A stretch of 34,851 nt of DNA from an uncultured Erysipelotrichaceae bacterium (GTDB lineage Bacteria > Bacillota_I > Bacilli_A > RFN20 > CAG-826). The notes under the pieces were generated by a model. The model was not told the origin of the DNA and did no database searches. It saw only the letters and a list, made by a program, of their open reading frames with translations. Positions 29,157 through 34,851 of the stretch are shown here, piece by piece. The DNA lies in NCBI GenBank assembly GCA_902798595.1, contig CADBXE010000013.1, positions 1-34,851 of the forward strand. Direction: 5' to 3'. Numbering within the stretch: the stretch's first letter is position 1; each line of letters begins with the position of its first letter. A program made the position numbers and the translations under genes.

Positions 29157-31782
<2,626 letters not shown>

Positions 31783-31783
<1 letters not shown>

Positions 31784-32823
31784 TGAATATTAATTTATTT
31801 GATTATTATCTACCTGAAGAATTAATCGCTCAAAGACCAAGTGAAAAGAGAGACCACTCTCGTCTTTTGCTTGTTAATAGAGAAACAAAAACATACGAAG
31901 ACAAACACTTCTATGATATCGTTAGTTATCTTCATGAAGGTGATGTCTTAGTGAGAAATAACACTAAAGTCATTCCTGCTAGATTATTAGGTATTAAGGA
32001 AAAGACCGGTGCACACTGCGAATTGCTTTTATTAAAGCAATTGGAAGGCGATAACTGGGAATGCTTAACTAGACCTGCTAAATCGCTTAAAGTCGGCGCA
32101 AGAGTGGATTTTGGCGAAGGCAAACTTATTGCTGAATGTATTGAAGAAAGAGAAGAAGGTCTTCGTGTTTTTAAATTCATTTATGAAGGCATCTTCCTAG
32201 AAGTTTTAGACCAATTAGGTAAAATGCCTTTACCACCTTATATCGCTCAACAATTATGTAGTAACGATAGATATCAAACTGTCTACGCTAAATACGAAGG
32301 TAGTGCGGCAGCGCCTACCGCTGGTTTCCACTTTACAGAAGAAATCTTTGAACAACTCAAAGCCAAAGGCGTGGAAGTTATTGATGTCACTCTTCATATT
32401 GGTTTAGGTACATTTAGGCCAGTCAAAGTGGAAGACACTAAAGACCATGTTATGCATAGCGAAGTCTACGAGATGAGCGAAGAATCCGCTGAAAGATTAA
32501 ACAAAGCAAAAGCGGAAGGAAAACGCATTATTGCAATCGGAACAACATCAGTAAGAACCTTAGAAGCTAACTATTCCAAATATGGTTGCTTTAAACCTAC
32601 AAGAGAAGCCACAAGTATCTTTATTGAACCTGGCTATAAATATCAAACGGTCGATGCATTAATCACTAATTTCCATCTCCCAAAATCAACGTTGATCATG
32701 CTTGTATCAGCGTTTATGGGTAGGGAATTTACCTTAGAAGTATATAAGCACGCAGTGGAAGAAAAATACCGTTTCTTCTCCTTTGGCGATGCGATGTTTA
32801 TCTATGGAAGAAACAAAGATTAA
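31783..32823 (+). CDS. queA: S-adenosylmethionine:tRNA ribosyltransferase-isomerase
   Basis: Converts preQ1 in tRNA to epoxyqueuosine using the ribosyl part of S-adenosylmethionine. The 346 residues have the family's start ([20 protein letters not shown]), [36 protein letters not shown]-like [22 protein letters not shown] and [13 protein letters not shown]. Complete. The start codon overlaps the tgt stop by one base, with GAAAGAGG just upstream. Confidence 0.97.
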
Positions 32824-33430
32824 CTATCAAAAAGAACAGGAAAAAATTCTTAAAGTTCTGAAAGAAAGCGGTGAAAAACCCACCTTACTTTTGCACGTTT
32901 GCTGTGGTCCTTGTTTTACCTACCCGTTTGAATTAATTAAAGACTATTTTAAGATTACGATCATATATAATAATTCCAATATTTATCCTGAAGAAGAGTA
33001 TCATCGCCGCCTAAATGAGCTTAAAGGTTATCTAAAGGCGATTTCTGCGGATATAGAAGTGATTGAATTTGATTATGATAGTGTAACCTACTATAAAGAT
33101 TTAGAACCATACGCAGATCAGCGCGAAGGTATGGAACGCTGCCGCATCTGTTTTAGAAAGAGATTAGGGCAAGCAATCCAACTAGCTGATGAGCGTGACT
33201 ATGACTATGTAGGCACAGTGATGAGCATCTCCAGATTCAAGAATTCTCAAGATTTAAACAAGATTGGTTTTGAGTTGTCTGAAGGCAAACGCGTGAAGTG
33301 GTTGCCCGCTGATTTCAAGAAGAATGGCGGCTATGAAAAGTCATTAGATATCGTTCGCAAGTATGGTCTCTATTTCCAACACTACTGTGGTTGCAAGTTC
33401 TCAATTAGAGCAAAAAAAGACGAAATTTAA
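32804..33430 (+). CDS. queH: Epoxyqueuosine reductase QueH
   Basis: Reduces epoxyqueuosine in tRNA to queuosine, the last step, and replaces the unrelated QueG. The 208 residues include [15 protein letters not shown] near the N-terminus, [22 protein letters not shown] and the final HYCGCKFS; these cysteines are the metal-binding set of the family. Start chosen at 32804 (MEETKI), overlapping queA by 20 bases; the open frame begins at 32783, but that ATG would add residues of no known counterpart. Either start lies inside queA. Closed by a terminator. Confidence 0.92.
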
Positions 33431-33542: not shown

Positions 33543-33602
33543 GCATATATATTTAAATTTATTTAATAATTGGTTGACAGCGCACCTACACTCACGTATG
33601 AT
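33543..33602 (+). promoter_or_regulatory. Strong S10-operon promoter with UP-like element
   Basis: TTGACA (33574-33579), 17 nt, TATGAT (33597-33602). A run of A/T (33543-33570) lies directly upstream, like an UP element. This is the closest match to consensus in the window, as expected for ribosomal-protein genes. Expected transcription start is about 33609. Confidence 0.85.
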
Positions 33603-33608
33603 ATTAAA

Positions 33609-33716
33609 CGTTGACGGCTCGCGTTGACGTGCGAGGTTGCTGATACACCCACAGGCGTTGTCATGAAGGTGTATTCAGGTAATTCGCACTGAGAGAGTTA
33701 AAGTCAAAGCCTGATA
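33609..33716 (+). promoter_or_regulatory. Structured leader of the S10 ribosomal operon
   Basis: About 110 nt of untranslated leader with two visible hairpins: CTCGC (33618-33622) / GCGAG (33631-33635), and CTGATACACC (33640-33649) / GGTGTATTCAG (33668-33678) with one bulge. Ribosomal-protein leaders often bind a product of the operon; which protein, if any, cannot be told here. Together with 33431-33573, this fills the only long non-coding stretch (33431-33716, 286 nt), which otherwise holds only the terminator and promoter. Confidence 0.55.
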
Positions 33717-33920
33717 GTGATAGGAGGAAAAACGCTCCCAACGGAAAAACAAGTGTTCACCATTCTTAGAGCGGTTCACAAATATAAAGATTCCCGTGAA
33801 CAATTCGAAATCAGAACACACAAAAGAATCATCGATATTAAAAACTACCGTAAAGAAACTCTTGATTCCTTAAAGAATTTAGATCTCCCAGCCGGTGTCG
33901 ATATCGAAATCAAACTATAG
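33717..33920 (+). pseudogene. rpsJ: Ribosomal protein S10, N-terminal coding part missing
   Basis: From 33735 on, the frame encodes [20 protein letters not shown] through [11 protein letters not shown], a clear match to S10 from about residue 42 to the end. The first ~41 residues (the usual RIRLKAFDHR region) are absent. The AGGAGG site at 33722-33727 is intact and is followed, where the ATG should be, directly by codon ~42. The only in-frame start is a GTG at 33717, upstream of that site, which is not a believable start. S10 is essential, so this is either an assembly deletion of about 125 nt, a real deletion with another copy elsewhere, or a split gene. The downstream operon is intact. Confidence 0.85.
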
Positions 33921-33933
33921 GAGGTAAATGTTC

Positions 33934-34698
33934 ATGAAAGCTATCGTTGGTAGAAAAATGGGCATGACCGAAGTCTTCACTGAAGATGGCCAAATCTATG
34001 CCGTCACAGTGGTTGAGGTCTTACCTAATGTAGTTACACAAGTCAAAACCGTTGAAAAAGATGGTTACGACGCTATCCAAGTTGGCTATGAAGAATTAAA
34101 AGAATCTAGAGCCAACAAATGTGAGAAAGGTATTGCTAAGAAAGCCAATACAGTTCCACACCAAGTCCTTAAAGAATTAAAGGGCGATGAAATGAAGAAT
34201 TATCAAGTCGGCCAAGAAATCAAAGCTGACATCTTCAAAGCTGGTGACATCGTTGACGTCATCGGTACAAGCAAAGGTCATGGTTATTCCGGTGTTATCA
34301 AACGTTGGAATCAACACATTGGTCCTAAAGGTCATGGTTCAGGTTACCACAGAGGTCAAGGTACCTTCGCAAACAATGGTCGTTATAACCACGGCGTTAT
34401 GCCAGGCAAACACATGTCCGGCCATTACGGTAACGAATCTGCAACAGTGCTCAACCAATTAGTCGTCGCTGTTGATGCAGAAAAGAACTACATCTTAGTG
34501 AGAGGTGGTCTCCCAGGACATCCTGAACAAGTGAAACCACTTATCGATCGCACTCCAGTAGTGGAAGCCGCTCCAGTTGAAGAGGCCCCAGTCGTGGAAG
34601 AAGCTCCAGTCGTCGAGGAAACACCAGTCGTTGAAGCTCCAGCCGCCGAAGAGCCAAAAGCCGAAGAAGCCGCTCCAGCCACTGAAGCAGCTGAATAA
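33934..34698 (+). CDS. rplC: Ribosomal protein L3 with acidic C-terminal repeat tail
   Basis: Large-subunit protein that binds 23S rRNA near the peptidyl-transferase centre. The 254 residues begin MKAIVGRKMGMTEVF and contain the internal loop GPKGHGSGYHRGQGTF and MPGKHMSGHYG, hallmarks of L3. Typical L3 is about 205-215 residues; here 47 extra residues (208-254) are Ala/Pro/Val/Glu repeats such as EAPVVEEAPVVEE. Start chosen at 33934, because AGGAGG (33919-33924) is 9 nt upstream; the ATG at 33928 would leave only 3 nt. Confidence 0.96.
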   Translation: MKAIVGRKMGMTEVFTEDGQIYAVTVVEVLPNVVTQVKTVEKDGYDAIQVGYEELKESRANKCEKGIAKKANTVPHQVLKELKGDEMKNYQVGQEIKADIFKAGDIVDVIGTSKGHGYSGVIKRWNQHIGPKGHGSGYHRGQGTFANNGRYNHGVMPGKHMSGHYGNESATVLNQLVVAVDAEKNYILVRGGLPGHPEQVKPLIDRTPVVEAAPVEEAPVVEEAPVVEETPVVEAPAAEEPKAEEAAPATEAAE

Positions 34699-34721: not shown

Positions 34722-34851
34722 ATGGCAGAAAAGAAATCCGTCAGCGTTAAAGTCTATAACATGGCTGGCGAAGAAGTCTCCAAGATGAACCTCAATGCTG
34801 CAATCTTCGGCATTGAACCACATCAACAAGCAATGTTCGACGCCGTTCAAG
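34722..34851 (+). CDS. rplD: Ribosomal protein L4 (N-terminal part, cut by window end)
   Basis: The frame starts MAEKKSVSVKVYNMAGEEV and continues to AAIFGIEPHQQAMFDAVQ, which matches the L4 start (short strand, then the FGIEP....FDAV block). AAGGAG lies about 10 nt before the ATG. The order rpsJ-rplC-rplD is the standard S10-operon order. The gene continues beyond 34851. Confidence 0.93.
   Translation, partial: MAEKKSVSVKVYNMAGEEVSKMNLNAAIFGIEPHQQAMFDAVQ

Follow-up and report, generated by a model that had tools for sequence, protein, structure and literature searches.

The window, by which we mean the whole stretch of DNA analysed here, is the entire contig C13 (34,851 nt) of a metagenome-assembled draft genome, which comprises 25 contigs totalling 1,374,149 nt and has a stated completeness of 77.27% and a stated contamination of 0.32%. 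All of the genes described in the window lie on the forward strand. The left-hand neighbours of the ribosomal genes are tgt, queA and the next gene (30659-33430), which are unbroken; the first two were named by NCBIfam, and the third (32783-33430), which matched no NCBIfam family, is presumably QueH-like. The rpsJ leader and ribosome binding site follow (33546-33732), and then come a remnant of rpsJ (33733-33920; NCBIfam TIGR01049, E 8.4e-26), rplC encoding L3 (33934-34698; NCBIfam TIGR03625, E 6.3e-68) and the first 43 codons of rplD (34722-34851), which is cut by the contig end and was identified by position and by comparison with relatives; no NCBIfam family matched at this length. Like bacterial rpsJ genes of the TIGR01049 family, which head the S10 operon, this gene has a leader, a ribosome binding site and codons for residues 43-103, with rplC and the start of rplD behind it. 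Unlike them, it has on this contig no start codon and none of codons 1-42 except the last two bases.

At the junction, an AGGAGG motif at 33722-33727 is followed by AAAAA up to 33732, and then come the last two bases of rpsJ codon 42, after which the frame encodes S10 residues 43-103 (LPTEKQVFT..., in the numbering of the 103-aa S10 of relative G013) and stops at 33920. A first-pass annotation had described a ribosome binding site running directly into S10 codons, and this was confirmed, with S10 beginning at residue 43 and two bases of codon 42 retained. G013 is the nearest genome at the junction and encodes a normal 103-aa S10. In this genome 132 nt lie between fixed anchors that are 2 nt apart in the window, so that 130 nt are missing at 33732/33733, and relative to G002 the loss is 131 nt. 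Both blastn and an alignment of 12 same-genus loci (row L022, cut in the wrong register, was left out) found the relatives colinear through this point, and in them a normal start codon follows the ribosome binding site. Insertion of a mobile element was rejected, as both flanks are colinear with those of the relatives and the window displays a plain loss. Deletion between short direct repeats was also rejected: G013 has a six-base repeat near both edges, but the junction differs from the product expected. Both edges fall at species-variable sites in the alignment, an observation of little weight since many columns vary. A search of phage records yielded six unannotated entries (60-80% identity) that were of no further use.

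The missing piece was sought elsewhere. The N-terminal 43 residues of the G013 S10 gave no credible match in the six frames of the window (best tblastn E 0.72), which bears out the earlier statement that no frame of the leader holds N-terminal S10 sequence. Across the draft, a 7-kb query from the operon region of G013 did not recover the missing 130 nt; it matched only the window, contig C1 (the part upstream of the leader, at 80%) and contig C14 (32 query bases). The S10 profile had a single match in the draft, namely the remnant itself (profile positions 28-98 of 98).

This result bears on one of three options raised in the first-pass annotation, which had proposed an assembly error, a recent deletion with a second rpsJ elsewhere, or a split or reduced S10. 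A genuine recent 130-nt deletion in the strain, backed by a second complete rpsJ that assembly or binning missed, could draw on the incompleteness of the genome, from which another copy may simply be absent, and for the same reason the failure to find a second rpsJ in the 1.37 Mb available is weak evidence. However, a single S10 match is found not only in this draft but also in 33 of the 35 relatives that have S10 (two matches in G014 and in G038), and a spare copy would leave the further breaks in rplC and tuf, and a contig end at the same base in relative G015, unexplained. We regard a deletion of this kind as very improbable.

The S10 profile matched in 35 of 39 relatives (36 of 40 genomes when the window's own is counted), always from profile position 1 or 2, and was not found in G001, G006, G015 and G022. 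Within the genus, 15 relatives were searched and all 12 with an S10 match encode the full-length protein, the others being G001, G006 and G015. A scan of a contig collection with an L3 query gave at least 74 loci. Among those listed, S10 begins at residue 1 in 63 and at residues 3 to 7 in four distant ones; one has residues 77-103 only, on a contig that begins inside the gene, and six have no S10 hit, namely L132, which starts inside rplC, and five that match the L3 query in part (E 3e-6 to 1e-4). None of the loci listed has an S10 beginning near residue 42.

These data also speak to the possibility of a real reduced or split S10. In that case residues 43-103 would be translated from the GTG at 33717 or from a different start, and the N-terminal part would either be lost or have a gene elsewhere. 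A frame does lie open from this GTG to 33920. Nevertheless, the ribosome binding site overlaps the proposed frame rather than preceding it, the N-terminal part and the missing DNA were not found in the window and in the rest of the draft, respectively, and the absence is not consistent across the lineage, given the full-length S10 of every same-genus relative with a match. The idea is further contradicted by the comparable breaks that this draft has in rplC and tuf, and it is hardly credible. A truncated S10, if real, would come as a great surprise; nothing here supports loss, splitting or reduction of S10, and this part of the earlier proposal was abandoned.

The remainder of the operon is not intact either, contrary to what the first-pass annotation had claimed. 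A second junction lies in rplC at 34517/34518, 785 nt to the right of the first, where 48 nt are absent in frame relative to both G013 and G002. The lost stretch is a conserved C-terminal part of L3, directly after a GG-x-PG motif. By text pattern this motif occurs in 51 of the at least 74 loci listed, and the following stretch is present in 50 of the 51; the exception, L084, is a fetched sequence that stops at the motif. In addition, rplD is cut at 34851, and a Ribosomal_L2 profile that matched 13 of 14 control genomes had no match in the draft. L3 has a Pro-, Val-, Ala- and Glu-rich C-terminal tail (34551-34695) whose length differs between relatives.

The draft also carries a damaged tuf, on contig C16. 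The names of genes on this contig are our reading of open reading frames, except for S12, which was found by Pfam profile. Relative to its G008 counterpart, tuf has lost 35 nt, which shifts the frame, and about 102 nt towards its end (about 6834 and about 7499 of L068). A protein search of the draft recovered EF-Tu in two pieces (94-95% identity) and no other EF-Tu; five further matches at 32-36% were taken as other GTPases. On the same contig the frames that we read as rpsL, rpsG and fusA are unbroken, and elsewhere in the analysis of this draft an RpoC domain gave a match free of stops; the presence of such whole conserved genes counts against reading the breaks as assembly artefacts. No N was counted in the window or in two other stretches of the draft that were checked, and hence none stands at the junctions.

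Across the 16 genomes of the genus, the draft included, the same protein search found tuf whole (1-394) in only seven. In G007 it meets a contig edge and spans 1-389; in the draft and in G005 it is split into two pieces that share a contig; it is partial in G015, G014, G006 and G010, and was not found in G013 and G011. In G015 and G014 the partial match extends to the contig end. In G005 (contig C22; L149 636-668), 33 Ns stand between the two tuf pieces in place of about 221 nt. Sequence masking was rejected as the source of these Ns, because masking would preserve length and here the length is not kept. Given the small number of whole tuf genes and the Ns in G005, conserved genes are frequently broken in drafts of this genus, and in G005 the break is openly marked, by a gap of the wrong size. 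That the short rpsJ, the short rplC and the broken tuf are all real, with the strain making S10 without its first 42 residues or relying on unassembled spare copies, seems to us extremely unlikely.

An independent clue comes from G015: the final base of its contig C10 (23,597 nt) aligns with 33732, immediately to the left of the junction in the window. A second assembly thus stopped exactly where that of the window jumped, which makes the break resemble an assembly branch point rather than a biological boundary. The first-pass annotation had considered the position between ribosome binding site and codon 42 an odd place for random error, and this coincidence explains it.

Sequence affinity also changes at the junction. 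The less conserved block of tgt, queA and the next gene aligns with G015 over 2772 columns without a gap at 86.5% identity. In searches with this block (30659-33430), G014 gave 88% over 2405 nt, G015 87% and five others 85%, whereas G002 gave 81% and G013 80%. To the right of the junction the nearest relatives are different ones: the rpsJ tail is 100% identical to G013 and 99.5% to G002, with other genomes compared at 93.5% or less, and the first 590 nt of rplC are 99.0% identical to G013 and 97.6% to G002, with the others at 92.4% or less. The start of rplD is nearest to G002 (99.2%) and not to G013 (95.4%). G015 has no sequence to the right of the junction. In the rpsL-tuf region of C16, G008 and G001 are closest (92%), G002 gives 90% over a 2.3-kb match and G015 97% over 458 nt; an rpsL-tuf region of G013 was sought as a match to C16 and not found, so the affinity switch has no direct G013 control.

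The switch would be expected if two populations were joined at 33732/33733, although such agreement is not proof, as recombination would look alike. If a G013-like donor had supplied the ribosomal operon by recombination, and assembly errors accounted for the small losses alone, this would agree with the 97.6-100% identity of the rpsJ tail and rplC core to G013 and G002 and with the leader-rpsJ-rplC-rplD order, which is conserved in relatives. Against it, the switch falls exactly on the assembly break and just 1.1 kb before the contig end. We consider such recombination unlikely; it bears solely on where the right-hand piece came from and can hold alongside an artefactual gap, so that its probability is not to be added to those of the other readings. 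Judging from these sequence comparisons, the joined flanks probably stem from different populations, and derivation of the right-hand 1.1 kb from a G013-like population is somewhat favoured. The rplD start, nearest to G002 rather than G013, is a further reservation, and the stated contamination of only 0.32% does not speak for a chimera.

We therefore arrive, with a probability of about 96%, at an assembly artefact as the best explanation for the beheaded rpsJ, in which the flanks would have been joined across a conserved stretch that the assembly could not resolve. This reading is based on the assembled sequence and rests on the near-identical relatives that hold the missing piece in place, the occurrence of more than one loss in the same draft, the clustering of these losses in conserved translation genes and the G015 contig end. 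Near the right end of the contig, the assembly would have met the rpsJ leader, rpsJ and rplC, whose DNA is almost identical in several species of the genus that presumably co-occurred in one sample. The two flanks would then have been joined and the middle 130 nt dropped with no Ns inserted, and the same process would have acted in rplC (48 nt) and, on C16, in tuf (35 and about 102 nt). As for the software step, we infer either that a gap was closed to zero or that Ns were removed later. The lack of Ns at the junctions counts against an artefact in that it leaves the joining step itself invisible. Of the options in the first-pass annotation, the assembly error thus stands, as a join of flanks, and rpsJ is almost certainly complete in the living cell.

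The finding most likely belongs to a known kind, the local assembly errors and chimeric joins of metagenome-assembled genomes, and would then be ordinary rather than new biology. Chen et al. 2020 (PMC7111523) describe uncorrected local assembly errors and gaps as spreading incomplete or incorrect gene sequences, and chimeric joins as recognisable by differing phylogenetic profiles on either side. The window resembles the errors described there in having incomplete genes at joins and phylogenetic profiles that differ across the join. It differs in how the error is recognised: in the paper the test is a lack of read support, whereas the reading given here draws on assembled contigs. A caution follows for users of this draft, as some of its most conserved translation genes have lost internal pieces silently, and no Ns give warning of it. 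A missing or short ribosomal protein in this genome is therefore no evidence of biology.

The rpsJ leader is itself well conserved, at about 94-97% identity to 10 of 13 same-genus genomes and 82-88% to the other three. Positions 33616-33716 resemble the Rfam family S10-Clostridia (RF03136) at 20.9 bits, below the cut-off of 35.1. A scan of 14 loci with this model gave five matches, one of which was above the cut-off (L006, 36.1 bits), and the leader may be a divergent member of the S10-Clostridia family.
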